Below are positions 1 through 37,500 of a stretch of DNA of 42,415 bases, piece after piece (position 1 is the stretch's first letter; every line of letters starts with the position of its first letter). The stretch covers positions 1-42,415 of the IMG/VR virus record IMGVR_UViG_3300028275_000027; one strand, written 5' to 3'. The notes beneath the pieces are model-generated. The model was not told where the DNA came from, did no database searches, and saw nothing but the letters and a program-made list of their open reading frames with translations. Both the position numbers and the translations under genes were made by a program. The stretch is from a virus.

Positions 1-2041
1 TCAAATTGCCTTTGCGTTTAACAGCATTAACATTAGCGTTTGCACCGTCTTCAACCGCGGTTATAAGCGTATCCATCTTAGTATTTAACTTTTCAAGTGC
101 TGTTAGAAGGTCGGAAGTGGTTTTTGTTTCTACTAGTGTTCCAGCTGCTCCAAATGCAGATCCAGTATTAGCAGGAGATATAGTTGAAGGTATATTAATA
201 GATGAAGCAAACTGTTCCATTACTTTCTGTATAACAAGATTTGGATTAGATTCAATCATAGAATTACGCAAACTACCTTGTAATCCTGATAACATTCCTG
301 GATTTTTTGCAACCATGTCATTTATGAATTCTCCTACTTTGTCCATTGGAACTACTGCTTCAGGACCTTTTTCATTCATAAATGACAACAAATTATCTGG
401 ACCTCCAAACCAATCTCCAAACGTTTCTTTAGATCCAAATGCCTGTTTAGTGACGCTAGTTGGATCAATTTTGACAGTTCCTTCGATCTGCATTGGATTA
501 GATTTAATACCTAATCTATCTTGCAATGCTTGACTTGGACGATTTGCCGAGCCTGGACCTGTATCTACTCCAGTGTAGTTGATCGCAGATTTTAATCGTT
601 TTTCAAGTTCATCAGGAGTTATTGCCTGGATACTAAATGCTTTTAAGTAGTTTGCAGGATTCATCGATGTTTGTAAATCTTTTCCAAGTTTATCAAAGCC
701 TTCTTTTAATCCCATTGCTAATCCAGCTGATATAGTCTTTGTTGCAGCTTCTGCGGCATTGATAGCTGTAGACAATTGATTACCTGGTGTTGCTCCTGCT
801 CCTGCAGGTTGTCTTTCTTTTTCTGCTTTTGCTCTAGCTTCGTCGTTTATTTTTCTAAAATCAGCAAAAGTTCCATCAGTCTTGGCCAACATTTCTTTGT
901 AAGCAGCCAGCAGACCTTCACCTTGCATCAGTGTTTCAACTGCTTGTCTTACACCTGCTGTTTGATTAGTAGCAAGAGCATTAAAACGTTCCATGCGTTT
1001 TTCATCTGATACAGCCAATGCCATTTCATAATCAATTTTAGCCTGTAGTTCTTTGCGTCGTTCAGCATTAGTTTCTTGACTTAGTTCTCTCATCAAGCCG
1101 CCAACTTGAGGTGCAAGTATGTTGAGAGCCGCTTGCATTTCTGTGCCTTCTTTGGTAACTACATTACCTCTGTTGGCTGACATTTCTGTGAATAGATTAG
1201 CAAATCCCTGGCCGTAAGATGTAATTTTTGGTAGTGATTCGTTGTATCTTGCCAGTTGTTCTGCACTCATAGACAATCTAGCAATACGCATTTGATTACT
1301 TTGCTGTTGTTGATCTATACCTTTTTGTATTTCTTGTCTACTCTTACCTGTAATCCTTGCCATGTTGTCTAATTCAGCAACTGTTGTGACTACAGATTCT
1401 TGTAATATTTTTTGTGTTCGTTGAGTTTCTATTCCTTGGAACTTTAATAAGTTTGTGCTTATTAATAATTGGTCTGTGAATTCGCTAAAGTCAATACCAG
1501 ACAACATGGCCTGTTGTACTTGTTTTTCGCTTCTTAATTCTTGTGCTTGTTTAAGGAATAACTGTGCAGATTCTTGAGCAGAACTTGCGCTACCGCTTAG
1601 ATATTTGGCGTTACTTTGTAATAAGTTAACCCATTGCTGTTGTCCAATACCAGCTTTTCCAAGTTCTTCAGCAAACTGCCCTAGGTTTTGACTGAAGCCC
1701 ATACCAAAACGAGATGAAGCCATCATATTTTGGTTCATCTCTACTAGGTTTGCACCAACAGATTGTGTTACTGCACCAATAACTTGGCCAACAGGACCAA
1801 AGTGTCCCATTACCGCAGTAACTTCTTTTAATGCGCCAGCAAAATTTAAATTACCTTGAGCCGCTTGACCCAGTGTGTTTAAAAAATTACCAGTGCCTTG
1901 TGCAATACCGGCCGCGCTAGTTCCGCCGCCAGTTCCACCGGTGGATCCTGTAGCGCCTGAGCGGCCGCCAGAGAACGCCCCGTTGTCCAACATTCGCTCA
2001 AGTGTAGAAGTTAACCGTTCGACTCTATCTTCTAATGCCAT
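1..2041 (-). CDS. Tail tape-measure-like structural protein, partial (3' end outside window)
   Basis: The minus strand is open from an ATG at 2041 to the window edge, giving at least 680 residues with no stop. The N-terminus is a short charged helix (MALEDRVERLTSTLERMLDN) followed by a Gly/Ser/Thr-rich linker. A long Gln/Ala/Glu-rich, largely helical region follows, typical of tail-length or hub proteins. Near residue 570 it carries GPEAVVPMDKVGEF, a motif that recurs near the C-termini of phage tape-measure proteins. In T4 the equivalent hub/tape measure is gp29, but I see no specific gp29 signature, so the family link is inferred. The gene is divergent from the gp26-type hub assembly gene. 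A late-promoter element (GATAAATA) lies about 45 bases upstream of the ATG. The ribosome-binding site is weak (GGTGGGA). Confidence 0.6.
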   Translation of the reverse strand, partial: MALEDRVERLTSTLERMLDNGAFSGGRSGATGSTGGTGGGTSAAGIAQGTGNFLNTLGQAAQGNLNFAGALKEVTAVMGHFGPVGQVIGAVTQSVGANLVEMNQNMMASSRFGMGFSQNLGQFAEELGKAGIGQQQWVNLLQSNAKYLSGSASSAQESAQLFLKQAQELRSEKQVQQAMLSGIDFSEFTDQLLISTNLLKFQGIETQRTQKILQESVVTTVAELDNMARITGKSRQEIQKGIDQQQQSNQMRIARLSMSAEQLARYNESLPKITSYGQGFANLFTEMSANRGNVVTKEGTEMQAALNILAPQVGGLMRELSQETNAERRKELQAKIDYEMALAVSDEKRMERFNALATNQTAGVRQAVETLMQGEGLLAAYKEMLAKTDGTFADFRKINDEARAKAEKERQPAGAGATPGNQLSTAINAAEAATKTISAGLAMGLKEGFDKLGKDLQTSMNPANYLKAFSIQAITPDELEKRLKSAINYTGVDTGPGSANRPSQALQDRLGIKSNPMQIEGTVKIDPTSVTKQAFGSKETFGDWFGGPDNLLSFMNEKGPEAVVPMDKVGEFINDMVAKNPGMLSGLQGSLRNSMIESNPNLVIQKVMEQFASSINIPSTISPANTGSAFGAAGTLVETKTTSDLLTALEKLNTKMDTLITAVEDGANANVNAVKRKGNL

Positions 2042-2104: not shown

Positions 2105-2932
2105 ATGGCAAATAATCCCTTACAGCAGTATTTTAGACAGCCTAAAATCTTTGTAAGTCTACCAAGCCAAGGCATCTACTATACACCTGGCACTATCAAC
2201 GGTGATCCTACTAGATTACCTGTTTTTGGTATGACAGGCATGGACGAGATATTGTTTAAAACACCTGATGCATTACTATCAGGAGAAAGTACAGCAAAAG
2301 TAATCAATAGTTGCTGTCCGGCAATTACAGATCCATGGCAAGTATCAACAGTTGACTTAGATTTATTATTATCGGCTATTAGAATTGCAACATTTGGCAA
2401 CGAACTAGCAATTGGTCATAAGTGTAGTAAATGCGGAACAGAACATGACTACAACATAGATCTTACAAGATTTATAGAACATTATTCAACTTGTGAGTTT
2501 GATAATCGTGTTGTGTTAGATGATCTAGCAGTAATTATAAAGCCGTTAAACTACAAACAAAATACAGATTTTTCATTGAGAAATTTTGCAATTCAACAAA
2601 AACTATATCAAATCAATCAACTATCTGATACTGCTGAACAACAACAAGCCAGTTCAAAACTATTTGAAGAATTAACTGAGTTAAGAAATGATATCTTTAC
2701 TGCACAGATTGAAAGTATTGATACAGGTAAAACAGTAGTTACACAAAGAGAATTTATTGAAGAATGGGTCAATAATGTAGACTTAGATATAGTTGATCGT
2801 GTGCGCGATCACATTGAAAAAAATCAAAAACAATGGATTCCGCCAGCTCAGACTGTCAAATGCGATGCTTGTGGTCATGAGGATCGTGTACTAATTGAAC
2901 TTGATCAGTCAAATTTTTTCGGCAAGGCCTAA
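2105..2932 (+). CDS. 26: Baseplate hub assembly protein, gp26-like (T4 baseplate family)
   Basis: This 275-residue protein opens with LQQYFRQPKIFVSLPSQGIYY and a TGMDEILFKTPDALLSGE segment, which I recognise from the gp26/gp51-type T4 baseplate hub assembly family. Two CxxC pairs, CSKCG near residue 107 and CDACG near residue 259, suggest a zinc-binding fold. In T4 the gp26 and gp51 proteins help assemble the baseplate hub in the cytoplasm and act on the tape-measure/hub protein gp29. Here the neighbour is a divergent tape-measure-like gene. The start is supported by GGAG six bases upstream and a late promoter. The last codons run over a T-tract slippery sequence, after which the -1 frame stays open for another 77 codons. 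Confidence 0.8.
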   Translation: MANNPLQQYFRQPKIFVSLPSQGIYYTPGTINGDPTRLPVFGMTGMDEILFKTPDALLSGESTAKVINSCCPAITDPWQVSTVDLDLLLSAIRIATFGNELAIGHKCSKCGTEHDYNIDLTRFIEHYSTCEFDNRVVLDDLAVIIKPLNYKQNTDFSLRNFAIQQKLYQINQLSDTAEQQQASSKLFEELTELRNDIFTAQIESIDTGKTVVTQREFIEEWVNNVDLDIVDRVRDHIEKNQKQWIPPAQTVKCDACGHEDRVLIELDQSNFFGKA

Positions 2933-2947
2933 TTGGATTAAACGCCT
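2914..2947 (+). promoter_or_regulatory. Candidate -1 programmed ribosomal frameshift signal
   Basis: In the gp26 frame the codons read aaT TTT TTC, so 2914-2920 is the slippery heptamer T TTT TTC. Both tRNAs could re-pair after a one-base backward slip. After a 4-base spacer there is a potential two-part stem: AGGC (2925-2928) with GCCT (2944-2947), and inside it TAAT (2930-2933) with ATTA (2937-2940) around the loop TGG. The zero frame stops at 2930-2932, just after the site. The -1 frame continues to 3153 and has no ATG, GTG or TTG codon before 3010. Confidence 0.65.
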
Positions 2948-3153
2948 CTGAGATTCAAGAACATCTAGTTAGGCTAGAAAAAGAAATAAAAGATTTTAAA
3001 ACTGAGCTAATGCGAATAAGTTGGTACATGCGGGGCGGTGTAACTGTAGATCAGTTGTTGCATCTCTACAGCTATGACGACAGATCGTCAATGTACATAG
3101 TTATAAAAGAAAATATGGAAATTAGTAAAGAAACTAATATGCCGTTAATTTAA
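2920..3153 (+). CDS. Start-less -1 frame extension of gp26 (gp51-like segment)
   Basis: The frame is open from the slippery site to a TAA at 3151-3153 and adds 77 residues. The sequence is protein-like throughout: an amphipathic, probably coiled-coil helix (EIQEHLVRLEKEIKDFK), then MRISWYMRGGVTVDQLLHLY and a C-terminus rich in Glu, Lys and Ile. I recall similar WYMRGG segments in small hub-assembly proteins of T4-like phages, but this was not checked. The only internal ATG codons are at 3010 and later, which would cut off the whole helical part. The simplest reading is translation as a gp26 fusion of about 349 residues after frameshifting. Independent initiation at an ATT overlapping the gp26 stop, or at 3010, remains possible. 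The stop overlaps the stop of the convergent minus gene. Confidence 0.6.
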   Translation, partial: RQGLIGLNASEIQEHLVRLEKEIKDFKTELMRISWYMRGGVTVDQLLHLYSYDDRSSMYIVIKENMEISKETNMPLI

Positions 3154-4148
3154 TAAGTTGGATTTTTGGCTTTTCCAAGGCCAGGTGCGTAGTTATCTGG
3201 TGGTTCAGTAACATTGCTAGGCGGTTCGTAGTCTTTAGGAGCAGGTTGAGCTTTGTCAGATCCTAATTTTCTTAACACAGCATCATAACCAGTTTTGCTC
3301 AATCCACTGAGCGGATTAATAATAAATCTTTTGTAGTAGTCACCGCCAGGAATTTTCCAATCTGTGCCAGGAATCATAGCTTCGCCAACAATCCATTTTG
3401 CCAATGCTTCTTGTCCTTCTGAACTAATCATCCACGCTTTAAATCCTGCTTGTGCTACTGGAGGTAATTTACTATAGATAGGATCAAGTTTTGCCAATAA
3501 TTTTCCTGCAAGAGGAATACGATAAGCAATACCAGGAACCCAAGAACCAATAACTTTACTAACTATTTTATTGCCTAGCCAAATTGAAACTATTCGTTGT
3601 ACACATTCATCAATATAGTATTGTACAACCCATTGCAGTTTACCATCGTCTTGCAGTTCTTTTTCGCCTTCATCACGCATTCTGTAGACATTGAGAATTT
3701 TTTCTTTGCAGTCTAGAATTGGATCAACAATTCCCCAGAACATTAAGCCTGCATTGATACTATCCCAAAGTGCTCCCCACCAGAAGTTAGTTCTACTGTC
3801 AGGAGTTTTTAATTGTCCCCAAATAGTTTTGCTGTTGGCTAGACTGATTTCTCTAGCTTTTTTTGCAGCTGCTTCAATAACATCATCAGCTACTTTTCCT
3901 TTAGCACTTCTTGATCCTACTGAAACAGCTTCATCGATTCCCATGCCACTTTTCTCAGCAAGATAAACCCATGCTTCAGCTAATTCTTCTGCAGCTTTAG
4001 GTTTATTTGCAATACGTCCTGCAAACCAAGACAATACATGTTCAATTGCTCCTATACCTTTAGGCAAAGCATATTTTATAGCAGTTGAAAGCACAACTCC
4101 TACTTCGTTTAGTTGCTGTGATTCCTGAATGATGTCGTAGATTTTCAT
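3150..4148 (-). CDS. Unidentified protein with a capsid-targeting-like N-terminus
   Basis: I do not recognise a family for this 332-residue protein. Its first residues, MKIYDIIQES, resemble the T4 internal-protein capsid-targeting peptide MKTYQEFIAE followed by Ala. The I-x-E at residues 7-9 and L-N-E at 13-15 both fit the cleavage rule of the T4 prohead protease gp21. A hydrophobic, Trp-rich stretch at about 121-145 (NFWWGALWDSINAGLMFWGI) could be membrane-active or buried. The C-terminus is Pro-rich. A late promoter lies 19 bases upstream of the start, with GAGAAAC as a possible ribosome-binding site. An internal head protein delivered with the DNA is my inference; an ordinary structural protein is equally possible. 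Its stop codon overlaps that of the convergent plus-strand gene. Confidence 0.6.
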   Translation of the reverse strand: MKIYDIIQESQQLNEVGVVLSTAIKYALPKGIGAIEHVLSWFAGRIANKPKAAEELAEAWVYLAEKSGMGIDEAVSVGSRSAKGKVADDVIEAAAKKAREISLANSKTIWGQLKTPDSRTNFWWGALWDSINAGLMFWGIVDPILDCKEKILNVYRMRDEGEKELQDDGKLQWVVQYYIDECVQRIVSIWLGNKIVSKVIGSWVPGIAYRIPLAGKLLAKLDPIYSKLPPVAQAGFKAWMISSEGQEALAKWIVGEAMIPGTDWKIPGGDYYKRFIINPLSGLSKTGYDAVLRKLGSDKAQPAPKDYEPPSNVTEPPDNYAPGLGKAKNPTY

Positions 4149-4238: not shown

Positions 4239-4620
4239 ATAATATTAATCTATAACGCGAAGCGTTGCGATATTATCCAGATTGTTCAGTCACACTTAGC
4301 CCTAGCGGGCTAAGATTGAACATTATCCGAGTTGCACAATGTCACACAGCAGTAGAGCATTACAGAGGCGGTCGTCCGGTACCTCGAGCTCAGTCTTTTA
4401 CGACGGCGGGTCTACACAGGTCTGCTATCACTAGTGTAGCCGTAGGGTTTTTCTCCCTTCATTTAGCCTTTCCTAACTTCTAAACAGCAAAACTGGTTCA
4501 TAGGCGTATCCAATCATCGTCCTGTTAAGGATAGTTGCTGAGTGCTTTTTTGGGCAAAAAGGCTTCCGTACTCCGCGACATCACCGGAGATTTGGGCGCA
4601 CGAATTTAGCCTGCGCGAGC
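4239..4620. ncRNA. Gene-free, highly structured region; candidate large non-coding RNA
   Basis: No convincing reading frame covers this stretch and it is visibly richer in G+C than its surroundings. At least nine stems can be drawn by eye. Examples are AACGC/GCGTT (4254-4266) inside ATAATAT/ATATTAT (4239-4276), CTTAGCCC/GGGCTAAG (4295-4314) inside TGTTCA/TGAACA (4283-4322), GAGG-CGG/CCG-CCTC with loop TCGT (4365-4385), and TACAC/GTGTA inside CGGC/GCCG (4404-4442). Others are TCCT/AGGA (4520-4531), CTTTTT/AAAAAG (4545-4561), CTCCG/CGGAG (4571-4589) and GCGCA/TGCGC (4596-4616). I found no group I intron core, tmRNA tag or 3' end, RNase P motif or tRNA T-loop. Strand is unresolved because stems score on both. 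A TATAAT at 4238-4243 would suit plus-strand transcription but has no clear -35 box. Confidence 0.5.
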
Positions 4621-4621
4621 T

Positions 4622-5056
4622 TTAACCCATTAATTTGCCTTTGATGTGTGAGCCGTGGACTCTAACCTGTATATGCCCGTTGTAGTATTCGTCTGATTCT
4701 AATACTCGCCTTGAGAATTGCTCTCTAGCCTCTATATAACTACATTCCGCCTTGCTGTTGCAGTAGTAAAGTATTTCTCTGTGGAAGTTTTCAGCGCCTA
4801 GTTGTGTCACGTCTTTGGTTAGTTCCGGCGATGAACCATAGTATTCACGCCAGTCTGAATCAACTTTTTGCCTAATTTTCTTTTTCTTCTTAGTGCCGTT
4901 TTTAAGTTTGTGTACTTTGTAGGTAGTTTTGCTGAATTTTGCTAATTTTTTGCCTATGTATTTGCGCTGATTGGTCTGATTGGTAATACAATATACGAAG
5001 CCTATACAGTCTTCAGGAAGTTGCTCTACCAGTTGATTCATATAGTACCATGACAT
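4622..5056 (-). CDS. GIY-YIG endonuclease-like protein
   Basis: The 144-residue protein has the GIY-YIG core: GFVY at residues 19-22 and KYIG at 32-35, followed by WREYYGSS and an IEAREQF segment whose Glu could be the metal ligand. A very basic insertion (GTKKKKKIRQK) sits between the core strands and may contact DNA. Family members such as I-TevI and the T4 Seg proteins are homing endonucleases that cut DNA and spread their own gene. This one is free-standing and not inside a host gene. I start it at the ATG at 5056; a TTG three bases earlier and an ATG at 5041 are alternatives, and none has a clear ribosome-binding site. It abuts the structured non-coding region, which may be part of the same element. 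Confidence 0.7.
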   Translation of the reverse strand: MSWYYMNQLVEQLPEDCIGFVYCITNQTNQRKYIGKKLAKFSKTTYKVHKLKNGTKKKKKIRQKVDSDWREYYGSSPELTKDVTQLGAENFHREILYYCNSKAECSYIEAREQFSRRVLESDEYYNGHIQVRVHGSHIKGKLMG

Positions 5057-5082
5057 CAACTATATAGCGAGTAGCTACTGTC

Positions 5083-18000: not shown

Positions 18001-18560
18001 CAATCGTTAACAAGCCATTACCACCAAGTTCTAATGAACTATACGATTTAGTTTCAGGAAATTTAAATTTAATAAAATCAATAAGTGACGAAATAATCTA
18101 TCATCCTGCAAATTATAAAGTACTGTTTGGATCAAGCGCAACACCTGATTTACAAGCCAGTTTTAAAGTGATAAAAAACTTAAATCAAGTTGTATCAGAT
18201 AACGATATTAAAACACGTATTATTTCAGCAATGGAAGAATTTTTTGCATTAGAAAATTGGGATTTTGGCGACACGTTTTATTTTAGTGAATTATCAACTT
18301 ATGTCATGTCGCAGTTAGCACCTGATATTTCTAGTTTTGTTGTTGTACCAAGACTTAGTGGCCTTGGTTTTGGAAGTTTGTTTGAAATTAAATCTGCAAG
18401 CGATGAGCTATTTGTTAACGGTGCAACAGTTGATGATATTGAAATTACTACAGGAATTACATCATCGTCTATTAAATCTGTAGCAGGCACAACTATGCAA
18501 TCAAATACTACTTCACAACAAAATGTAACAAGTTCTTCGTACGGAGCAAACAATGGCTGA
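15057..18560 (+). CDS. 6: Baseplate wedge protein gp6 (baseplate J-like)
   Basis: This protein has 1167 residues, much longer than T4 gp6 (660). The N-terminus (RQNYPEDYNDYIESSEYLAL, then LIAFLGQSIAFRVDLNARDN) and the segment MITAEDYNISPLSASTQVAK near residue 430 are characteristic of gp6 in T4-like phages. The C-terminal region (VVSDNDIKTRIISAMEEFF, then WDFGDTFYFSELSTYVM) is the baseplate J-like core-bundle part. gp6 forms the inner wedge ring with gp25 and gp53 and drives baseplate opening. The extra length is mostly a beta-rich middle part at about 500-950. The stop overlaps the start of the giant gene by eight bases. Confidence 0.88.
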   Translation: MTVTARQNKLLISEDWKKIYQSFRNADFQSYDFENLRRTMIDYIRQNYPEDYNDYIESSEYLALIDLIAFLGQSIAFRVDLNARDNFLELAERRESVLRLARMLSYNAKRNISASGLLKFTTISTTENVLDSNGRNLAGQIVTWNDPSNANWYDQFIKVVNAALPKTQQFGTPADSDTIYGIPTEQYTFQSNTTGIPVFGFTKIVAGRSMDFEVVSTTFKGKTFVYEESPKQGNPVSCIFRDDGRGQGSAGSGFFMRFVQGTLNTGSFSITQPSNNQSIDIDSQNINNDDVWLYKLDTLGNEVEEWTSVSNFEANNIIYNSLNKSIRNIYSIITRTNDAISLQFSDGTFGDLPLGTFRTYYRVSNGLTYTINTQDIRNVSVSIPYISNVGQQETLTVTMSLASSVSNATGAESSDDVKANAPATYYTQNRMITAEDYNISPLSASTQVAKIKAINRTSSGISRYFDLSDPTGKYSSTTLFADDGILYKEEFKNSFRFSYQNKTDIEGIVVNDIFDIIKNVDLRNFYYDKFLNFVSGLDAVWQNVTTDTGFSSGYLISKTGSTIYKVGSYTSTDLKYFKPGALVRFTAPDGWYFDVSNNNELKYGSSSTPGSALAIWAEVVSVVDDGTAAGAGVLSTGFGPITFNVNVPSGISGSGVAPAISQIIPKWRTVIDSSTITTMIDLIFANKPFGLRYDAVNQVWTIVFELNLDSKNAFSLGKQGDQTNLRQDASWLLLFTTDNEYYTVTSRGQRYIFESDAQTRFYFESSNKIYDSKSNAVIKDLINILSVNTKPDSTLSFTYDQAWDIVAEFRGIDGYVDTKKLIVSFADTDNNGVVDNPELFLNIVNPPSITETSSSILQTKYIVQEKYLISQGQEDYRYFDNSSQTVLIKASKNYVSFSEKVTGQYFYFIDTDTVVKYNALLADPYIPTLDYKVFLGRDGLRFQYIHNADYDSRIDPGATNIIDVYLLTKSYDTKFRQWLSGAIVNKPLPPSSNELYDLVSGNLNLIKSISDEIIYHPANYKVLFGSSATPDLQASFKVIKNLNQVVSDNDIKTRIISAMEEFFALENWDFGDTFYFSELSTYVMSQLAPDISSFVVVPRLSGLGFGSLFEIKSASDELFVNGATVDDIEITTGITSSSIKSVAGTTMQSNTTSQQNVTSSSYGANNG

Positions 18561-21500
18561 TAATACAAATCCAAACGGCGGAAAAACATCTAGTGCGGAA
18601 CTATTACCTAAATATTATCGAACAGATGCAAATAAAAAGTTCTTACAAGCTACTGTTGATCAATTAATACAGCCCGGAACAGTAAAGAAAGTAAACGGAT
18701 ACGTTGGCAGAAAAAATTCTAAATCTACCACAGGAGAAGATATTTTTGTCCAAGCACCAACTAATAATAGACAAAATTATCAATTAGAACCAGGGTTAGT
18801 TATTAAAGATTCTCTTGATAACACCACTTTCTTTAAAGATTATCAGGACTATATAAATCAGCTTAATGTTTTTGGCGCAAATGTCAAGAATCATCAACGA
18901 CTAAATGAACAAGAGTTTTATAGTTGGGATCCTCATATTGACTGGGATAAATTTGTAAACTTTCAACAGTACTATTGGTTGCCTTATGGTCCTGATGTAA
19001 TTAAGATTTTAGGCATTCAAGAAAACGTTACAAGTACATACAGAGTTGAAATTAAAACTGAAGCAGATAATAATACTTACGTATTTTATCCCAACGGCCT
19101 AGTTGAAAACCCAAGTATTAGATTGTATAGAGGACAAACATATCGTTTTGAAATTAACAGTCCTGGAAATCCGTTTTCAATTAAAACTGCAAGAACAACA
19201 GGATCAGCTAACAGATATGAAATATCAAACGTCAGCGGCCACGCAGTCGAACAAGGTGTTATTGAATTTGTTGTGCCAACAAATTCTCCAGATTTGTTGT
19301 ATTATGTAAGCGAATCAGATGCTGACCTTGGAGGTGTATTTGAAATACTTTCGGTAGATGAAAATTCGTTTTTAGATTTAACAACTGACATCATTGGGAA
19401 AAAGACATTCACACTACCTAACGGAACACCGTTGAGCAATGGGATGAAAGTATCTTTTGTTGGTACTGTTATTCCTGAAGAATATAAAACAGGACAATAT
19501 TACGTTGAAGGCGTAGGAGAATCTATTACACTTGTTCCTGAATCGAGATTAGAACTAATTAGCCCGTATACAACTCCAGAAGCAGTATTGTTTGATAGTG
19601 ACCCTTTTGATACATTACCATTTGGTGACTCAACCTCATTTTCTGGTAAACAAGATTACATTGTAATTAATCGACGAAGCGCAGATTATAATTCATGGAC
19701 TAGACATAACAGATGGTTCCACAAGAGTGTTATTGAAGCCAGTGCGGCATACAATGGAAAAGTAGCAGACATAGACCAATCTGCACGAGCCGTGAGACCT
19801 ATTATAGAATTTGAACCAGACTTAAAACTTTTTAATTTTGGAACTCGTTCTATTGTTGACGTTGATTTAATTGACACATACACTACAGATGTATTTTCAA
19901 AAATTGAAGGTCAATTAGGTTATAACATTGACGGAATTCCGGTAGCACAAGGACAACGAATTTTATTCCCAGCAGACACTGATATTCGTGTTAAAAATAA
20001 AATTTATAAAGTTGAATTTTTACTTCTTGATGGTGAAAGAAGAATTCACTTAGTAGAGCAAACACTTCCAGAAATTAATGATTGTGTTCTAATACGCCAA
20101 GGAATAGATAATCAAGGGTTATCTTATTGGTATGATGGTAGCACTTGGAATAAAGCCCAACAAAAAATCAGTTTAAATCAAGCACCATTATTTGATATTT
20201 TTGATAGCGGAAAAAATAGTTTTGGAGATAGAACTGTTTATGACGGATCAACTTTTGAAGGAACTAAATTATTTTCATATAAAATTGGTTCTGGTGCAAC
20301 AGATTTAAATTTAGGATTTGCACTTTCTTATAAGAATATTGATAACATTGGTGATATTGTTTTTAATTTTAATATTTCATCAGATACATTCCAATACAAA
20401 AATGTATCGTACGTTATCGACAAAAAAATTAACGCAGGCTTTTTATTAAAAACTTTACCAAACGGACAAACAAAATTTGTAAACGGTTGGCAAGTTTCGC
20501 AGGTAGCTGACGTTCAACCTGCTATCCGAATCTATAAAGACTCTAATAAAGTTAATAACTTTGATATTGATCTTTTTGATAATATTAATGATCTTGCTGA
20601 CTTGCATGTACGAGTGTACGTTAACGGTAAACGATTAGATAAGACACACTGGTCTGTAGTAGATGGTACATACTACAAAAAAATTGTTTTAGAAACTGAT
20701 ATTAAAACTACTGACATTTTAACAATCAAGGCTTTTGCAAAACAACCTATTAATGATAACGGATTCTACGAAATGCCAATAGGCTTTCAGAACAATCCGT
20801 TAAATGAAGATATCGTTGATTTTACTCTAGGAGAAATTTCTTCTCATCTTGATTCTATTGTTGATAATATTCAAGACGAATTTGTTGGTTTATTTCCAGG
20901 ACCTAGTAACATTCGAGATTTAGGAAATATCACACGCTACGGTACAAGATTTGTTCAGCATAGCGGCCCTATAAGTTTAGCTGCTTATCATTTAACATCT
21001 CAGAATAACAATATTATTCGAGCAATTGAAGCTAGTCAAAATGATTACATTAGATTTAAAAGAAATTTCATTATTATAGCTGAGAAGCTTGGTGTTGATT
21101 CTGATCCTGTTCGACAAGTGAATTTAATCTTGCAAGAAATTGCCAAAGATAAACCAAAGACTTCCCCTTACTATTTCAGCGACATGGTTCCATTTTCAGG
21201 AAGCGTTCGTTCTGACTTAAAGGTATTTGACTACAGAATTAAAACATATCCGTTAACTAATACGTTTGATTCTACAGTACTGTCTAGTAAAGCTGTTTTA
21301 GTTTATTTGAACGGCGAACAACTATTACTTGGAAAAGATTATACATTTAATGATCAAGGATTTGTAGTTATTTCTGCTAATTTAGAAAATAATGATAACA
21401 TAACAATTTACGAATTTGAAAATACTAACGGATGTTTTGTTCCTGCAACACCGACTAAATTAGGCATATGGCCAAAATACGAACCAAAAATTTATCTTGA

Positions 21501-24500
21501 TACAAGTTTAGTTACTCCAAGATTAATGATACAAGGACACGACGGAAGTCAAATTTTAGCCTACGGTGATTTTAGAGATGATTTAATTCTTGAATTAGAA
21601 AAAAGAATTTATAATAATATTAAGATTTCTTATGACACTGAAATTTTTGATATAAACGATTATTTGCCTAGCTACAACAGAAATACTTCTTATTCTCTAA
21701 CAGAATTTAACGAAGTATTATCTGTTCATTTTTACAGTTGGGCTAATTTAATTGAACAAGATTTTACAAAACAAATAAATTACGATAACGCAGATTCGAG
21801 AACTTATAATTATCGTGATATGTCAACTCCTGACGGTATAAGTCCTCTTCCTGGATATTGGAAGGGAATTCACAGATGGATGTTAGGTACTGATCGACCA
21901 AATATTTGTCCTTGGGAAATGTTAGGGTTCAGCGAAGAACCAGTGTGGTGGCAACAGGTTTATGGACCAGCTCCATATACTAGCAATAATTTAATTCTGT
22001 GGGATGATTTAGCTAAAGGTATTGTGAGAGAACCAAACAAACCGTTAGTGCAAAATACAAAATATATTCGTCCTTATATTGAAGGACATATCCCTGTAAA
22101 TGAAAATGGTGAGTTAATAAGCCCTCTTGAATCAGGTCTTGCGACAGGTGTTATTACAAATTCAACAGCAGGCGATTTTGTGTTTGGAGATGTTAGTCCG
22201 GTTGAAAGTGCATGGAGAAGAAGCAGTCATTATCCGTATAGTGTGCTAATTACTTTGTTGTTAACAAACCCTGCTAAAATATTTGGTTTATTACTTGATA
22301 GATCTAGAATTGTTAGAGATTTATCAGGTCAACTTGTTTACAAAGATACTGAGCTTAGAATTAAACCTGCAAACATATTATTACCAAGCATTTATTCTAG
22401 TACAACTAGTGTTAGAACAAGCGGTATTATTAATTTTATTGTTGACTATATTCAAAGCGATAATTTAAAATCTTACGATCAGTATGTGTACGATTTAAAT
22501 AATTTACAAATTAAGTTATCATATCGTATTGGCGGATTTACAAGTAAAGAAAAATTTAAATTGTTACTTGATAGTAAAACACCATTAACAACTGGTAGTG
22601 TATTTGTTCCTCAAGAAGATTACGATATCGTCCTTAACAGCTCTACACCGATTAAAAAAATTACTTATAGTGGAGTAATAATTACTAAATTAGCTGACGG
22701 ATTTATTGTTAAGGGTTACAATAAAACACAGCCTTATTTTAAATATTATTCATTTACAAAAACTGGAATATTAATTAATGTCGGTGGTATTTCAGAAAGC
22801 TATACTAATTGGACTACAAATTCGCAATACTCCGCAGGCAAAGTAGTTGCATTTAATAACAGATATTATAGAGTAAAAACTCTACATACTACTGATACAG
22901 CATTCAATCCAGTGTATTATACTGCCTTGCCTACTCTTCCAATTATTGGTGGACGAGATGCTTATTTTAGACAAGATTGGGATAGAACCGAAGAACTAGT
23001 AGTACCATACGGAACAAAATTCAAAACTATACAAGACGTGGTTGACTTCTTATTGGGATACGGGGAGTACCTAAAAGATCAAGGATTTATTTTCGATAAT
23101 TTTAATCCTGCATTAGGAGCTATCACTAATTGGGAAACTAGTGCAAAAGAATTTTTATTCTGGACTACACAAAATTGGAGTACAGGTGAAGACAAGTGGG
23201 TTGACTGGACAGCTAATCAACCCGTAGCACTTGGCGAAATTGTTAGATATAACGGTGATTACTACAGAGCAATAAATTCTTTAGAACCTGCTTCTGTGTT
23301 TAATACTGACGATTATGTAAAATTAGACGGTTTAAGTTCAATAGGAAGTAGTGTAATTAGTTTAAGTCCTGCTGCATCTAACTTAACATTTACATCTCCA
23401 TTGGCAGTTGTCGATGATATTAGAAATCCGTTTAACGGATACGAAATATTCAAAGTTGATGGATCACCAATTCCTCCAACTTTCTTAAACAATTACAGAG
23501 ATGAAAATGCTGTTAGTTATACACCGCTTCAAGACGGAATATATGGAGCAGTATTTTATCTAGTGCAAAAAGAACAAGTTGTGATTTTAAAGAATTCTAC
23601 CTTGTTTAACGATACAATTTACAGTCCTACTAGTGGTTTTAGACAAGAACGTATTAAAATTGCCGGATATGTAAGCAGTAACTGGAAAGGCAATTTCAAT
23701 GTTCCAGGATTTATTTTTGACCAGGCGACAATCCAAGAATGGGAAGCATGGAAAGACTATTCTCTTGGAGATATTGTTAAGTACAAACAATTCTATTATA
23801 CAGCCAAAGAATTTATTTCAGGAGATGGTTCTTTTGTCTCTAGCCAATGGATGAAGTTAGATAGCAAGCCATCGTCTCAGCTATTACCTAACTGGTCTTA
23901 TAAAGCAAGTCAGTTTTCTGATTTTTATAGTTTAGACAGCGATAATTTTGATGCTAGTCAGCAAGCCGTTGCTCAACACTTAATTGGTTATCAAAAGCGA
24001 CAATACCTATCTAATATCATTCAAGATGATGTTAGCGAGTTCAAATTCTATCAAGGCATGATTGTTGAAAAAGGAACAAAAAATGTCCTTAACAAATTAT
24101 TTGATGTATTAAGTGCTGATGGACAAGAAAGTGTAAAATTCTTCGAAGAATGGGCAGTTCGTGTTGGACAATACGGAGCAAGCGGTTCGTTTGAAAATAT
24201 TGAATTTATTGTCGACGAACAATACGTAAAAAATAACCCTCAAGGATTTGAATTAGTTAAAGAGCATGACGATTCTGTAGTTGATTTTATATTACGACAA
24301 ACGCCAAACGATGTATACTTAAAACCAATAGGGTATAATAGTAATCCTTGGCCTATCTCGTCTAATAAAAATCTATATCTAAGAACACCAGGATATGTTA
24401 GATCAGGCGACGTAAAACTTACTTTAAAAACATTTGAAGAAATTTTAACACAAGACATAACTTCTTTTGTAGAAGGAAATTGTGTTTGGGTTGGCTTTGA

Positions 24501-27500
24501 AGGCCGTGAATGGAACGTGTACAAATATACACGTTTTAATTCAACTGTCTTGAATATAGAATATAAACAAAATAAGTTAATTTTAACTTTAGCAGACGAT
24601 GTTCTTATTGATTTAGGAACTTATCTTGGTATTGATCAAGCATTTGCTTATAACGGATTTTATAAAATAGATTCGATCCAAGGTCGTGTAATAACTCTTG
24701 CGGCAATCTTAACAGATCAACCAAAGGTATTTGCAGAACAAGACAGAGTTGTTCTAAGTTATTTTACGTCAGTTCGTTCTGCATCTATGGATGAATCTGA
24801 CAAGACGATAAGTTTTCCAATTAACGATAATGATTTAATTTGGACAGACGACTCTGGAGACGGAAAGTGGGCTGTTTGGCAACACCAGAACATTTATTCT
24901 AAAAACGAAATAGTTAATACTGCTCCAAGTAATGGTCTATTTTACGGAAGGCAGTTGCTATTAAATCCTCCAAGTACAATTAGTATTATAACAACCAATC
25001 AGGGAGACGCGATTGTCTATGACAAAGCCGGGCCGTATGCACCTTGGTTACAACGTCAAACAATAACAGCACCATTTATTTCAACATCAACCGGATTTGG
25101 TTATTCAGATACTGCGGATTCTTTAACAGGAGATGTTATTGCAATTTCAGCAGATAGTACTTGGTTTGCTTCAGCAACACCGCTTGCGTCAAGCGTTTGC
25201 AGCAAATATGTAGGTGTTTGGGATTCATCAACAACGTATTCTGTTGGACAAATTGTAATTCATAATTCTGTCCCGTATGTTTCAGTATCATCGTCTACTA
25301 ATAAAAATCCTGAAACGATATCAAATTCTTATCTTGGTATGTCGGGGACTGCGTTGACTGGTGCAGGTGTTGGTGCAACATTTAACATAACTACAAACAA
25401 AGCTAATTATTCAGCTACTATTGTTTCACCAGGAGACAGTTATGCCGCAGGAGATACAATAAGAATTTTAGGAGCATCGTTAGGCGGTTCCGCTCCTACT
25501 AATAACCTTATTATCAAAGTAACATCAATTGCCGGTGGCGCCTTATCTGGACCAATCGCTGCTATTACCGTTTCGGGTAATGCAAAAACATATTGGAAAC
25601 CAATTGCTTATATTCCAGTTGATGCTACTGGATCTAATTCTAATCTAGATAATCAAGGTGTTGTTTCAATTTATAAGAAAGATAACAACAATATATTTTC
25701 TTTAGTGGCAACAATATTAAGTCCACTACCAAGTAACAATCAACAATTTGGTACAAGTTTAGTATTTGCTGATAATACATTATTTGTTGGTGCAAATGGA
25801 CATAACAATAATACAGGTATTGTATATAGACTTGATTACAAAACAGTTGTTGAAGTTAGCACTTCATATAATCCAACAGGAAGTGCAGGAACAACAGTAG
25901 TATTGACAAGTACAGCAGGTATTGAAGAAGGAATGTACTTGAGCGGAACTGGATTTACTAGCGGACAATATGTAGCTCAAGTTAATCAAGCATCTAATTC
26001 AATTATTATTAGTGCAGAACCTGATGCAACACCGTCTGGTAAAATTGAATTTACAACTACAGATTGGCGATACAACTTAGACAATATTTTAGAAATTCCA
26101 TCATTACCTGCATTTAGCAAATATGGATCTGTATTGTCTATTAGCTCAGATAATAATACGTTATTAGTTAGTACAGTTGGCGTTGATCGTCCAATACAAG
26201 ATCCTCCAGTTCCTGGAACAGTATTTGTTTATAAGAAAAATCTTAATGATTATAACTTAGCTCAAACAATTGATAGCGATGAATTTGGATTTGGAACAAG
26301 TTTAACAGTTTCTAATTCCGGAGAATATATTGCAATTTCATCAATACTTGCAGATGGAACTAGATTAGACCAAGGAAAAGTTTATGTTTATAAAAATGTA
26401 AATGATTCTTATCAATTCTATCAAGATCTGTACAATGTTAAACCAGAGGTTGCAGGATTCTTTGGAACTAAGATTTCATTTATGAACAACTACGAAACAT
26501 TAGTTGTTTTTAACAAAGGATCGGATAATGTTTTAAAAACAAAATTTGATTTAGGTGCAACAACGTTTGATAATAATTTGACCAGAATATATGATTTAAT
26601 CGAAGATGGCGGAAGGATCGACATATACGATCGATATGCATCTAATTGGGTATATAGCGAAAGTTTAGAAAATACTGACGATTTATTATCTGGATACAGC
26701 ATTGGTTTAGCAGTAGGTTCTAATCAGGTAATTGTTGGATCGCCTAATGCGTTAGACCAAGGATACAAATCTGGTAAAGTTTACGAGTATAGAAAATCGA
26801 TAGGTAAGTTTAGTTGGTCAATCTATAGAAAACAAAATGACCGTGTAGACATTGACAAAATTAAAAGAGCATTTTTATACAACAAAGCAACTAATAAACT
26901 TGTATCGTACTTAGATATTATTGATTCAACTCAAGGAAAAATTCCAGGTATTGCTGATCAAGAAATAAGATTTAAAACATTCTATGATCCTGCTGTGTAT
27001 AGTGTAGGAGATAGTACAGTTAATGTTGACGATGGTATGGCCTGGACTAAACAGTATGTTGGTACACTATGGTGGGACTTAAGAACTGCTAAATTCTTAG
27101 ACAGTCATGATACAGATTTAGTTTATAGAAACAGTACTTGGAATACTATTTTCCCAGGAGCAAGTATTGATATCTACGAGTGGGTTGAAACAAAATACAC
27201 ACCTGAAAAATGGAATAGTTTAGCAGATACAGAAGAAGGTGTTACTGCCGGAATAAGCGGAACAAGTCTGTACGGAAATGATGTATATTCATTAGTTAGA
27301 AAATATGACAGCGTAGCTAAGAGCTTTAAAAATACATATTATTTCTGGGTTAAAAATAAAAAAACAGTACCTAATGTTCTAGGACGTTTAATTTCAGCCA
27401 GCGATGTATCAACATTGATTGAAAATCCTCGCGGATACGGATACAAATACATTGCGTTAACTAGTTCAAATTCTTTCAGTCTTGTAAATGTAAAACCTCT

Positions 27501-30500
27501 TTTACAAGATAAAGATGTTGTATTAAGTGTAGAGTACTGGACAAGTTCTAAAACAGACGAAAACATTCATAGCGAATGGAAGATTATCAATAATAATATT
27601 GAAACATCTATTCCTCCAAACATTGAGCAAAAGTGGTTCGATAGTCTGTGCGGAAAAGACAGTCAAGGACGTTTAGTTCCTGATCCTGCTCTTCCACCAA
27701 AATTAAAATATGGAATAGAAAATCGTCCTCGTCAGGGAATTTTTATCAATCGTTTTGAGGCTTTAAAACAATTTATCGAGCATGTTAACAATGCACTGAT
27801 TAAAGAACTTGTAGTCGATAATTCAGATTTATCTAAACTAGAGCAATATGAAACAGAACCAAGCACTATTACAGGCTTATATGATTCTACTTCAGACTCA
27901 GAGTTAGAACTTAGATTTGCCAACATTGGAAATTTTGAAAAACCACAGTTTGCACCTGTTATTGAAAATGGAAGAATTGTAGGTATTGATATTATTAATA
28001 AAGGTAAAGGTTATGTAATTGCACCTTATTTTACAATTACTGGTTCAGGTACAGGCGCAATTATTCGTTCAGTGATTGACGTTAAAGGACAAGTTACAGG
28101 TATAGAAATTATATCTGAAGGCTACGGATATTCTTCTGATACATTAGTTACTTTAAGAAACTATAGTGTACTAGTACATAGTGATTCTGTTGCTAACGGA
28201 AACTGGAGCATTTATACCTACGAGCCTTCAACACAAGTGTGGTCGCGTGTAAGAAGTCAGTCCTATGATGTTAGAAATTATTGGAATTATGTTGACTGGT
28301 ATGCTACAGGATATAACCAGTTTACTTCAATAGATCATTCAATAGTGTCAATGTCAGACTTGCAAGAACTAGAATGTTCAGTTGGACAAACTGTTAAAGT
28401 TAGAGTAACAACAGCTGGCACTTGGTTATTACTTGAAAAATATGCTAATTCATCTAGCATTGACTGGACACAAAGTTATAAAGTAGTTGGTAAAGAAAAA
28501 GGTACAATTCAATTTGTTCCAGAACTTTATAGTTTTTCTAACAGTGAGTTTGGTTTTGACGGATCGTTATATGATTCAGGAATATTTGATAACTCTGCAT
28601 CAACAGAACTTCGTATTATTTTAGAAACACTTAAAAACAATATTCTTGTTGACGATATGAAAGAGGTTTATTTAAATCTCTTCTTCAATAGTGTGCGTTA
28701 TGCATACACTGAACAAAATTATATTGATTGGATCTTTAAAACTAGTTTTGTCAAAGCTCAACATAGTGTTGGTGAACTAAAACAAAAGGTAACATATAAT
28801 AGTGATAATTTAGAAAATTTTGAAGATTACATTAACGAAGTAAAACCTTATAGAACAAAAATTAGAGAATATGTAAGTGCATATAATAAAGTTGATACAA
28901 ATCAGATATCAACAACAGACTTTGATTTACCACCTGTTTACGAAAACGGAAAATTACTACCAATAACAACTAATGTTATAAATGGTATGATAGAAGCTGA
29001 TAACAATCAAGTATTGACTTACCCGTGGAAGCATTGGTACGACAATGTTGGTTTTTCAATTATTTCTTTAGACATTGTTGACGGTGGTTCTGGTTATAGA
29101 GCCGAACCAGTTGTTAAAATTATTAGCAATACTGGTTCTGGCGCAACTGCTAGAGCATTTTTTACTAATGGAAAAATTAATCGTGTTGTACTTTTAACTA
29201 AAGGCTCGGGGTATTTAAGTGCACCGACAGTAGTCATTGACGGCGGATTAATTGACGGTGGAACACCTGCGAAGGTTATTGCAAAATTAGGAAATAGTGT
29301 AGTAAGAAGTAATTTAGTAAAAATAAAATTTGACAGGATTACACAAAAATATTTTGTTAATAATTTACAAGAAACAGAAGAAATTTCTGGTAGTATAGTC
29401 TCCGGATCAAAGCTACAATTTTCTTTAAAATGGGCGCCAGATGTTCGAATAGGAAAAACTACAGTTCTTGTAGGCGAGTTAGGTAGACAAGTTGAAGTAC
29501 TAAGATCGAATTATAAATTAGCAACAGTTAAATCTACATCTAAAGGTTACACAAGTTATAGCGGTACAATTACTTTTGATGTTGCGCCTAAGAAAGGTTC
29601 GATTATAACAATAACATACATCAAAGATTGGTCGCTTTTAAATGCAGCTGATCGTATTCAATATTACTACGACCCAGCAACCGGTGAACTAGGTAAAGAC
29701 TTGGCTCAGTTAATGACAGGCGTTGATTACGGTGGTGTTAATATACACGGATTAAATTTTGATATCAGTTCTGGTTGGGGTAGTGTTCCTTACTATACAG
29801 ATAAATGGGCAAGTTTTGATTCTACATTTGATGATTACATTGTTACTGTTTCAGCAGGAACATATCAATTTACATTACCGTATGTACCAGCAGATGGTAC
29901 TGAGATGAATGTTTATTATGTAGGTAAGAATACTGATTCGTATGTTGGAGATGGTTATACTTTAATTTACAATTTTAATATTAATGACGTCTACCCTCCA
30001 ACTGCTACAGTTGTAATTGACAAGTTGTTCAACAATACAGGATCTATAAATGTTGCTGGAAGCGACATCATTAAAATATCTAACACAACTGGAATCAAAA
30101 TTGGTGATATACTAACAATTGATCCTGATTTCCCTCAAACTGTAGGGTTTGAAACTAAAGTTGTAAGTATACTTGATAGTACTAGAGTTAAATTAGACCA
30201 GATTCTATTTAAAAATATTGCCAACGGAACTACAGCAAAATTTACTCGAACACTAATAGATCCAACAGATTGTACAATCAATCCTAACGGTACTATATTC
30301 TTGCAAGAACCAATTCCAACAGGTGCTACTTTAAACATTGAAGCTTATGTTAATCCTGTTAGACTCGATGATCCTAATTTTACTGTAACAGGTGCTGCCC
30401 AACAAGCTCTTGACGACTTGGAACAAGATTATGCATTTATTATTTCTAATAGAAATACTTTAATTAACAACAAAAATTCTTCAGAAGCAAATTTAGAAAA

Positions 30501-33500
30501 TTATAATGCTGAACTAGTAAGCAAACAAGCAGAATTAAATGCTTTATTGGTCATACTTGATGGACTAGATCCAAGTGACCCATTGTATGCCCCAACAGTA
30601 AGTCAGATCAATATACTTGTAAACACAGAAATTCCAAATATACAAGCATCTATTGAAGTTGAACAAATTATGTTAGACAACATTAATTCTGATTTAGCTG
30701 CTAACACTATTGAAAAAGCTGCCAAGACAGTTGAAATTAATGATGCAAAAGCATATCTTGACAGTTTACCTCCATTAGCAAACTTAACAGCAATAATGCA
30801 AACTATTATTTCTGATGGAATTCCCGACAGTGAACTAGACCCAACATATAAAACATTTATAATTCCTGCAGCAATTGATGTCTATGACGGAGATCAATTC
30901 ATTTGGCGTCGAGCAGGAAGCGATGGATCGGTTCTGCCTCAAGACCAAGATTATGATACTGCACTAAGCGGAGGAGAATTTTTAAGTACTGCTCTTACAA
31001 GTGCAACTGGTTTAGCAGCAGAAGACATTATTGTTGACGGTGACGGGTTTGTAACACCAACAAGTAGCCCGGCCACAGAAGAAGTAGTTCCAGGACAAAT
31101 TGTTGATGCAGTTGCAATCAAAGTATACGATAGACCAAGTGTTGGATCTGCTAATATTAGAGTTGACAGCTATGTTGCAGATGGTATTCAAACTGATTTT
31201 GCAATAACACAACAACCAAATAGTCCTACAGCAGTTATTGTTAAATTTACAAACGGATTTAGAGATCCGTTAACAGATGTACTATCATCTACTTCAACAA
31301 TAAAAACAGTTAACGATGATTATATTATTGACTATGGTAATAAACTAGTTAAATTTAACACAGCACCTACACAAGGCGAACTAGTTTCAATTTTTAGTTT
31401 TGGATTTAATGGTTCTAATTTATTAGATTTAGACTATTTCATTGGTGACGGGTCTACAGTCGAATTTGTAACAAAAGCACCTTGGGTTGAAGATGTTAAT
31501 TACATTGTTTATGTAAACGGAGAACCAGCAGAGCCAGGAACTCCTGCACTATTTAAAACAGATTCAAGTTATGAAAGTGCCAACAGAATAGGATTGTATT
31601 TTAGTGTTCCACCATCTGCCGGCGCTTTAATTAACTATGTCATCGTTAGTGGAACAGAACAAACATACTCAATTACAAAAACACAACGCATTCAAGGTAA
31701 CGGATCAAATGTTTATAATTTAGAATATGCAGTTGGTGACAAGTTACCAGCAGAATCAAATATGTTGGTTAGAGTTAATAATAAATTCTTAAAAGGACCA
31801 AACAATAGCTACTATACAATTACAGGAAATAAAGTCAACTACGCAATTGATCCTATTAAGTTCCTACCATATTCTTTGTCTGCCAATGACATCTACGTTT
31901 ATGCAGGAGGCAAATTACTAACATCTGGTATTGACTATACTGTTGAGTTAAGTGGAATTACTGTAAAGATTACACAATTAATTCGTAAAAAGTATTTGAA
32001 TCAAGAATTGATTATCAGTGTTAAACAAGATCAAGAATATACGTATATTCCTTCAAACGGTGTTACATCTGCACAAATTCAATTTGTAAAAAATTATGTA
32101 TCTACTGATTTAATTGAAGTTGTAAGTTCTTATAAACACGATATTTTAGATATACAAAGAACAGGCGTTAATGTTAGTTCAAACTTTGAATTAACACCAG
32201 ACACACCTGAATTTTACAATTATAAAGGTGTTGCTGGAGGTGTAATACAGCTTGATAGATCTGTTATTGATGACAACTATGTTTGGGTTATTAAGAACGG
32301 TTTATTGTTAACACCAAGTGCAGACTTTAAACTAAATCAAGATAAAAAGAGCATTAAGTTGGCATTCTACCCAGATCCTGCTGATGAATTTACAATCATA
32401 ACTTATGGTAGCCAAGTTTTAAAATCTGGTGTTTCTTATATGCAGTTTAAAGACATGTTGAATAGAATACATTTTAAACGATTAAATGCAAATAAGAGAA
32501 CTATATTAGTTAAAGATTTAAAATATCTTGACACTTCTATTGAAGTTGAAGATGCAAGTAATTTTGATGCGCCTAGTATTGCAAACAACAAGCCAGGTAT
32601 TATTGAAATTCGAGGAGAACGTATTGAGTTTTTTACCTTGCAAACAAAAGTCGAAGGCACAGTAACAACTTACTTGTTAGGACAGTTGCGAAGAGGAACT
32701 CTCGGAACTGGAGTTAGCAAAATCCATAAAGCAGGAAGTTTTGTTCAAGATATTGGTGTTAGTGAAACTATTCCATATGTTGAAAAATCAACAATTGAAC
32801 AAATTAAATCAGACGGAACTAATATTGTTCCTCTAACATTCGTGCCAACTAAATCATCAGATTCTTGGACTTATGATACTGGCTTTACAAGTTCAATACC
32901 AACAGGCTACGGACAATCAAACGACATTGAAGTATTTGTTGGCGGATATAGTTCTATTCCATGGAGCAATGGAATTATATACAAAGTTAATGATATTGTT
33001 GAAGTAGGAAGCTATACATTTAGATGTCTAGCAGATCATATAAGCGGGCTAACATTTAAAGATAGTGTTACAACAATCGAATTTAATCAAGACGGCAGTT
33101 ATAACACACTATTAGAAAATGTAACATCAAGCACAGTATGGACATTCTTTGTAGGTAATATTCGTTTGAAGAAACAACCATACAAAATACACAATGTTGA
33201 TAATGCACCAGATAGTCCAGAAGGAGATGTACAATTAGATGCGGAATTTGCTGTAGACGGTTTCAGCAACGAGCTTAGATTGACCCATCAGTTAACCTTT
33301 GGCACCAGGGTAACTGTTGTAAAACGCACAGGAATTGCATGGGATTCAACTACAAATATACTAGATGACGACAGCAAAATTGCACGTTTCTTAAAAGCCG
33401 TGCCGGGTGTTTGGTACACAAATATTGGTAAATATGAGAACAAGGCAGGAATTCCGTCCAGTTTTGACAGCAGTACAGGAACGTTCGATAGTGCATCGAT

Positions 33501-34569: not shown

Positions 34570-37500
34570 ATGGCAATTAAACCATTTGAAATACAAGGAT
34601 CAACACTAACTATTGGAGGTGTTGACTTACAAGCAGGTAATACTAGTGTTGTTATTCCTGGTGTAACACAAGCAACTAGTTATCGTGTAGAAGAAGTTGA
34701 AGATACTGGTGATCAGACTAGATCATTCGGACAAGTTGCTCCTATTATCATCGACTATCAAATATTCTTAGATTATCTTAATAACGGTTCATCAAGCGGC
34801 AGAGCAGTTTATAGTGTCAATGAACTGGACAGTGAAGGATTTATTGACGGTATTAGTGTCGATGCTCCAGGTTCATATACTGCTAATGAAAGAAGTGCGG
34901 CAGTTGGGAATGATCTTCACGCTTACATTGGTACAGCAGTTGGTGACGAGTTCAATCCGTTTGTGCCAACTGATTGGGATATTATTCCTTTCCGTCCTAA
35001 GATGCGAGCAGGTGAGATCGAAACTATTGGAGGCGGTGGTGGAAGTGGGTTAGTACAACGTACTGTTAACTATCCTACAGGTGAAAACGGCGATACTGCC
35101 GGAACAATGGTATTGGACCCACAAGGTAATGTTTACGTTTGTATCGCGGACTATGTTCAAGGAGAAGTGGTAGAAGGCGATACTGATATAGAAACCAGTG
35201 AACCGTACAACATAGGACAAACCGGCGGCGCACTTTTAGTATGGACTACAAACATAGCAGACTACTCTGATATAAGTGCCTTGTTTACAACAGATGGATG
35301 GGACGGTAGTTCTACATTCGATCATTCTAGCCCAGGAAGTTTTACTATAGTTAGTGAAGCATTTCAAGATTATCCAACAGCACACACTTGTACAAGAGTA
35401 GGCACTAACGGATCTGGAAGTCTTTTCTTTAATGTTAACTACACATCAGGCGATGCTTCGGATATTGCTCAAAGTTCCACAGCCACAGTGGCTTGGTCTA
35501 TTACTCCTACACAGGCCAATATTTGGGAACAGTTAAGCACAGGTAGCAGTGGCGGCAATCAACTACTTAATGGTGGTGAGTCATTTGCCCTAATGTCAGA
35601 AGGCGATGTTGTATTTGACGGAGTAGGTAATGGTGGTGTTAATCGTGGCTTAGTTTGGAACTATGGTGTTAACCAAGGTGACGGTACTAACAGTATGGTA
35701 CGCCAAGACATGTCTGGATTAACAGTTCATGCTTACACAGAAGGCAACGGTGGTGGATCTACAGGCAACAGCAATGATGGTTATTCAGCACCAGTGCGTA
35801 TTACTACTAACCAAGATGCTAACGGAAAAGTTTGGACTTTTGACGGAGCAGGCAATTTAACATTCCCAGACGGTAGCGTACAAACAACAGCCTACACTGG
35901 TCAAAGCGGCAGTGGCGTAACAACAACATACTATGTAATGGCCAACGTTGACGGTACTGTTCTTACAAGTACAGACGGTGTAACTTGGTCAACACCGGTT
36001 GACATTACTAATAACGGTATCAATCATGTAGCGACCAACGGTACAAACATTGTTTACATAGACGGAAGTACTGTTGGATACACTTCATTCGCAACACCAG
36101 CAACTGCTACCGAAACATCAATATCTGTTGATGGTTTATCGGATATTAATACTCAGCAAATAATTTATGGTGGTGGATATTTTGTAATAGCAGGCAGCGG
36201 CAACAACGGAACATTCCGTGTGCCAGTGTATGGATATTCAACTGACGGTGTAAACTGGACATTCAAGACTATTACTGATTCAGCACTACAGTTAGTTTTT
36301 TCTAATAGCAACAGCGAAGACTGTGATTTTAACGATGTAGATTATAACGGAGTAGGATTTAACTTTGCTGTTAATGGTACTAATGTAGGCGGTGGCGTTT
36401 ATACAACCAACATTACAGAAACATTTACAACAACAAATTATTTTAGTATGGTGCCAGGCATCCAAGTTGCTTGGAACGGAAATGCTTGGTTCTACTACAA
36501 TAGCAGCCAAGGAAGCGGTACAACCAGTAGTGTTGATCCAAGAGGTGCTAGTTGGGATGGTCCTCTTGACCCGTGGGGCACAAGAGTTGTTGACCTCGGG
36601 TATACATCAAATCCAGATATAAGTGATACTATGTCTGGTGGTGATGGAGTATTAGCAATGTCAGACGGGGAAGGACATGTAGCTTATTCTACTAACAACG
36701 GTTATACTTGGACTATTATTACTCCAATCCCTTATAATAATAGTATTTCTGATATTGTTCGCGGAACAACTACTACTATATCTTGGAGTGGTACTAGCCA
36801 CGGATTTAGTAACGGTGAAAAGATAGTTATTTCCGGTGTCACAAGTTTTGATGCCGGTGAACCAGGAACAAGCAATCAAAGTTACAACGGAACTTTTTAT
36901 ATTAAAGACAATGGTGGTACACCTGAGTTATACACAGACCAAGGATTAACTACACCTTGGGACACTAGCACATATTGGCCTCCAGGAACTGGCCCTGGTA
37001 GTATGACAGGCACAATTACATTCAGTCATGGTACTTACATTGACGCAATGGACTATGCTAACGGTTACTTCTACATTGGTAACGATGATGAGCAAGTTGC
37101 CAGAGCAAGTACAAGCGACATGACAACTTGGACTATCTTAGATGACCAAAACAATGCGTTTGAATACTGGAATGACTTTTATGGTTATACTGCTGTCGGC
37201 GCAAGTATTGTCCTAAGCGAATTAGTCGGTGACGGTGCTGTGGCATCAACTGGTTACAAAACTACAGTTTATACAGACTGGAATGGTTACCAAGGCGGTG
37301 AAGCTGGTAGTGATTGGTTCCCATATACCGAACAGATTGCTGTAGGCGATACACTAACATTCCGCAACGGCGAAGTTCGCACCGTTACAGATGTTAACCA
37401 AAGCCCCGGAGGCCATACAGCAGTTGTATGGAACGGTACTGTGGATGGCAGTGATACTAATCCAAGATATCCTATCGTAATTACATCATCTGTCTATGTT

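Follow-up and report, generated by a model that had tools for sequence, protein, structure and literature searches.

As read from its sequence, the gp26 gene in this viral DNA very probably encodes a tail-assembly chaperone and undergoes -1 programmed ribosomal frameshifting, by which two forms of the protein, one short and one long, would be made. We use the window for the whole stretch of DNA analysed, i.e. 42,415 nucleotides of the IMG/VR virus record IMGVR_UViG_3300028275_000027. The core of this reading, a -1 slip like that of the lambda proteins G and GT, had been put forward in a first-pass annotation, and it is upheld by three features found here: a conserved heptamer, a start-less coding extension and a downstream hairpin. 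The features of the locus are listed below with the evidence for each.

2105 to 2932, plus strand: short form, gp26-like, 275 amino acids, PF12322 / phrog_150 (Pfam, PHROG, AlphaFold)
2914 to 2920, plus strand: putative slippery heptamer T TTT TTC, in frame, of the form X XXY YYZ (sequence; conservation)
2920 to 3153, plus strand: -1 extension, 77 sense codons (2920-3150) and a stop, predicted to form a helical hairpin (dN/dS, AlphaFold)
2926 to 2938, plus strand: 5' arm of the stem, 5-6 nt past the heptamer (folding z, covariation)
2930 to 2932, plus strand: TAA that ends the 0 frame and with it the short form, within the 5' arm of the stem (sequence)
2963 to 2975, plus strand: 3' arm of the stem (folding, covariation)
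2 to 2041, minus strand: large divergent gene running to the window edge, candidate tape measure (position kept in relatives)
3150 to 4148, minus strand: convergent gene with no assigned function (homologues at the same place in close relatives)

By direct reading, the 0 frame at the end of gp26 is AAT TTT TTC GGC AAG GCC TAA, and it crosses T TTT TTC at 2914-2920, just where the first-pass annotation had located it. The heptamer does lie before the gp26 stop as had been claimed, at a distance of 9 nt and not 10 nt. After a slip of one base the ribosome would continue as CGG CAA GGC CTA and so on, through 77 sense codons to the TAA at 3151-3153, and the predicted fused product has 272 + 77 = 349 amino acids. 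This -1 frame is open in the window from 2905, and its first ATG, GTG or TTG appears only at 3010, which bears out the earlier description of a 77-codon frame lacking these codons up to that position.

The heptamer is conserved far beyond the window. We collected 67 IMG/VR loci and 89 phage records using the window's gp26 as the query, and widened the survey with the cyanophage, Vi01 and KVP40 queries and with named phages to 178 loci with a complete gp26 end, which fall into 34 groups at 60% identity. Comparing homologous loci in this way had been proposed along with the original claim. The exact in-frame T TTT TTC was found in 159 of the 178 loci and in 32 of the 34 groups, and many groups are also start-less. 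The carriers cover the window's lineage, the cyanophages, KVP40 and the jumbo phages Atu_ph07, Phosso, CBB, XaC1, RaK2, 121Q, Cassandra, SCTP-2 and Vibrio 2.275. Elsewhere in the surveyed gp26 genes, Phe is encoded by TTT three times in four. With Phe-Phe given and local codon usage taken into account, T TTT TTC would be found in all 32 groups with a probability of ~10^-28, an order of magnitude only, since the calculation takes the conserved Phe-Phe as given and treats the groups as independent, which they are not fully.

Because the related loci keep the site, chance, sequencing error and hidden initiation are all very unlikely explanations. Homopolymers are prone to error, and one added T in the T6 run would fuse the two frames, so that a sequencing or assembly error could in principle have split one long gene. 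However, the identical T6-C is present in dozens of independent assemblies as well as in isolate genomes, the 0-frame stop is kept in place across the relatives, and T4 gp26 naturally ends at the equivalent position; we find such an error exceedingly improbable.

The 19 loci without the heptamer are 18 loci of the Ackermannviridae type (L174-L191, e.g. Salmonella phage Vi01) and HTVC008M. The gp26 end has no canonical heptamer in the former, which share a conserved stretch close to ATTTTCATYTAATKTTTGAAAYTGATTTA spanning the gp26 stop. An ATG is found in the -1 frame of three of them (L188-L190), and Vi01 has a -1 extension at its gp26 end despite having no canonical heptamer. HTVC008M (L089, reverse strand) has T8 in the place of the heptamer, leading directly into the stop (TTTTTTTTAA), and polymerase slippage is possibly an option there as well.

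The same mechanism could be considered for the T6 run: RNA polymerase would slip on this run of identical bases, as it might on the T8 of HTVC008M, and some mRNAs would then encode the fusion with the ribosome not slipping at all. We rate this as very improbable, as the run is fixed at T6 followed by C and is not lengthened, which lets both Phe codons re-pair in the -1 frame, and as a hairpin is found 5-6 nt downstream, the usual distance for ribosomal stimulators.

This hairpin argues for ribosomal frameshifting in its own right, its spacing being within the range of about 5-9 nt expected of -1 frameshift stimulators. It has 12-13 bp in the window, with an MFE of -15.8 kcal/mol and z = -2.8. 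A stem-loop after the heptamer had been noted before; it does exist, but 5-6 nt and not 4 bases downstream, and the best stem is larger than the one described. Across 24 relatives, 83.7% of the cells of the stem 2926-2938/2963-2975 are paired and 24 cells are altered on both sides, e.g. U-A at columns 21/54 is replaced by A-U, G-U and G-C, compensatory changes within the window's own clade. The covariation of the stem is 0.344, compared with 0.179 when shuffled (0/500) and with at most 0.125 when the partners are slid. More generally, the hairpin z after the heptamer averages -2.3 over the 32 groups, versus -0.06 over 141 gp26 control windows (p = 2e-11). The hairpin varies in sequence among the groups and is absent in some of them. 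RNAalifold gave no consensus structure on the mixed alignment A4, which includes four sequences from a sister clade without the stem.

The -1 frame after the heptamer shows the pattern of a coding sequence. In 158 of the 159 loci it extends over 57-81 codons before a stop; in the remaining one, L059, the contig end cuts the frame. We calculated a median pairwise dN/dS of 0.12 over the extension, using 46 distinct extensions of 77 codons, and of 0.34 over its start-less first 35 codons. Codon position 2 is the most conserved in these 46 extensions, and both of the other frames hold several stops in the extension sequences listed. The AlphaFold model of the extension has a pLDDT of 87.5, with helices at 14-41, 48-53 and 57-77 of the submitted segment, and its comparison with viral models gave weak, short fold matches only. 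One could ask if the -1 ORF is an untranslated chance overlap. Such an overlap is at odds with the conserved length, the low dN/dS, the stops in the other two frames and the confident helical model, and we give it next to no chance. These patterns argue that the extension is under purifying selection and is translated.

The extension lacks a start codon among its codons 1-25 in 15 of the 32 groups, the window's being one of them, and hence ordinary initiation cannot make its conserved N-terminal part in these groups. The earlier statement that normal initiation does not explain the upstream part thus holds, with the start-less stretch being under purifying selection. Other relatives do have a start codon near the 0-frame stop, namely Atu_ph07, Phosso, 121Q, KVP40 and many cyanophages, and in the first four of these an ATG is located at the stop or adjoins it. 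The extension is often annotated as a separate gene in such cases, under the name gp51 in cyanophages and KVP40. Homologues in which the second segment has an ordinary start codon had been named in advance as evidence against a frameshift; such a codon does occur in these relatives and in S-PM2, but all of them retain the heptamer.

The second segment could alternatively be a separate small protein, produced by translational coupling, i.e. by re-initiation near the gp26 stop. The separate gp51 annotated in the cyanophages and KVP40 agrees with this idea, and re-initiation of this kind is possible where the ATG is at or next to the stop. We still consider it an improbable account. In the window and 14 further groups the coupled ribosome would find no start in the stretch under selection, the ATT at 2932 is not conserved (it is ACA in L025), the heptamer persists even in phages having the ATG, and in T4 the segment is the C-terminal part of gp51, itself a full-length protein.

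Our data place the short form in a known family. The window's gp26 matches PF12322 with 63 bits against a cut-off of 24.5 (Pfam 4.3e-17) and phrog_150 (PHROG 1.3e-18). Its AlphaFold model has a pLDDT of 88, and the best viral fold match is to 'Baseplate hub assembly protein, bacteriophage T4-like' with an E-value of 6e-22. The short form corresponds to T4 gp26 by orthology. The model has no significant match among the solved structures in the PDB, and known chaperone folds (PDB 2OB9, 3KLU, 3FGX) were therefore not recovered; a sequence search also found no solved structure related to T4 gp51 or to the window's gp26.

In T4, gp26 and gp51 are both members of PF12322 (8e-65 and 2e-53, respectively). 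We compared them with a profile of the frameshift fusions predicted in cyanophages and KVP40. The alignment with T4 gp51 runs across the junction, while the one with T4 gp26 ends at the junction, and the cyanophage/KVP40 extension matches the C-terminus of gp51 with an E-value of 7e-10. It had been suggested that the slip joins a hub chaperone to a gp51-like segment, and for the cyanophages and KVP40 the alignments agree with this; the window's own extension gives only weak matches, with hhalign E-values of 6e-4 to the cyanophage extension and 0.019 to gp51. Its link to gp51 is thus weak by sequence and comes mainly from the equivalent position.

We scanned T4 and seven T4-even records and found two PF12322 genes in each, with gp51 reported in two pieces in one record (G006) and gp26 cut by the record's ends in another (G002). 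These two genes are paralogous and divergently oriented, and among the T4-even sequences examined neither the ends of gp26 nor the C-termini of gp51 contain the heptamer. All remaining genomes in the scan have a single PF12322 gene except SCTP-2, whose one relative is below the Pfam cut; both the heptamer and the extension are present in this phage.

The neighbourhood of gp26 is partly characterised. A tape-measure-like neighbour had been proposed for the gene at 2-2041. Its product matches nothing in PHROG or Pfam and resembles neither T4 gp29 nor the gene at the same position in RaK2, and a search of six named records, run without a positive control, did not find the protein. What stands is the position: in the loci inspected, a large divergent ORF with an open frame of 669-955 codons keeps the place of 2-2041, and a tape measure is plausible for this gene as it fits the retained position. 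On the other side, the convergent gene at 3150-4148 and the -1 ORF have their last 4 nt in common.

Several other features of the window were observed. A copy of Rfam RF01718, 'Polynucleobacter-1 RNA', is present at 4482-4621 on the minus strand with 86.9 bits, directly 3' of an ORF for a SegE-type GIY-YIG endonuclease (4622-5059, minus strand; Pfam 1.6e-33). Of 20 related phage loci, 16 also carry RF01718 on the minus strand, ~1.5-2.3 kb past the end of gp26, which suggests that this orphan family is a phage RNA of the window's lineage. Two giant ORFs follow the baseplate genes on the plus strand, at 18553-33519 (4988 aa) and 34570-40311 (1913 aa), and the product of the latter has no Pfam match. 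A QueC-like queuosine biosynthesis gene is found at 41536-42129 on the minus strand (PHROG 5e-18), and it is possibly involved in DNA modification.

We propose the following mechanism. Most ribosomes would terminate at 2930-2932 and release the short form of 275 residues. The hairpin 5-6 nt downstream would hold the ribosome at T TTT TTC, and a minority would slip one base back, where both Phe tRNAs are able to re-pair, and go on to make the long form of 349 residues with a C-terminal helical domain. The hub/tape-measure initiator may be chaperoned by both forms, in the case of the long form through its extra domain, and both would be expected to be absent or rare in the finished virion. We infer the slippage and its efficiency from the features of the locus, and the chaperone role from the homology to T4 gp26/gp51 and the analogy to lambda G/GT.

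The implications go beyond the window. Genes annotated as 'gp51' or 'hypothetical protein' after gp26 in the genomes of cyanophages and jumbo phages are probably the C-terminal part of a frameshift product, which gives a uniform account of the annotation problem around gp26. T4 gp51 gains a role that can be tested, and the covarying hairpin, a putative stimulator of frameshifting in a chaperone gene, should be handy for reporter tests.

The first-pass annotation was not aware of any description of such a frameshift in T4-like phages. One does exist, according to two papers, PMC10885494 and PMC12846349, that cite the work of Vladimirov, Gautam and Davidson (2022, Virology 566:9-15) on the tail-assembly chaperones of T4-like phages. 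The former reports from it that some T4-like phages have one short and one long gene and no frameshift, and the latter cites it for polyT -1 frameshift signals in such phages. Going by these two papers, systems of this kind are thus already known, with the same gene family and the same idea of a short and a long form as in the window. What is possibly new is the frameshift in jumbo phages and in the window's uncultivated lineage, together with the covarying hairpin. A literature search with incomplete coverage found nothing joining jumbo phages, tail-assembly chaperone and frameshift. We speculate that in the T4 superfamily as a whole, with its jumbo phages, the -1 frameshift is probably the ancestral source of the hub/tail chaperone pair, and that the T4-even phages lost it upon duplication into gp26 and gp51; part of this view is very probably already contained in Vladimirov et al. 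(2022).

Atkins et al. (2016, PMC5009743) described G-T frameshifting as conserved in long-tailed phages 'except T4'. T4 gp26 and gp51 are called hub assembly chaperones; according to PMC3004832, gp51 is required but does not occur in the particle, and its function is unknown. T4 gp26 is homologous to the short form, and T4 gp51 aligns across the junction with the long form predicted for cyanophages and KVP40; unlike the window, T4 has two paralogous divergent PF12322 genes and no heptamer. Lambda G/GT resembles the window in that the -1 slip takes place close to where a chaperone gene ends and yields a short and a longer form, which for the window is indicated by the sequence signature. The window differs from lambda in its heptamer, T TTT TTC, and in its candidate tape-measure neighbour, which, if it is one, is divergent. 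The chaperone frameshift of the Vandenendeviridae and Andersonviridae, as described in PMC12846349, has a conserved polyT -1 site and a -1 frame that is open where the short form ends, as in the window; the motif there is GTTTTT versus T TTT TTC in the window.
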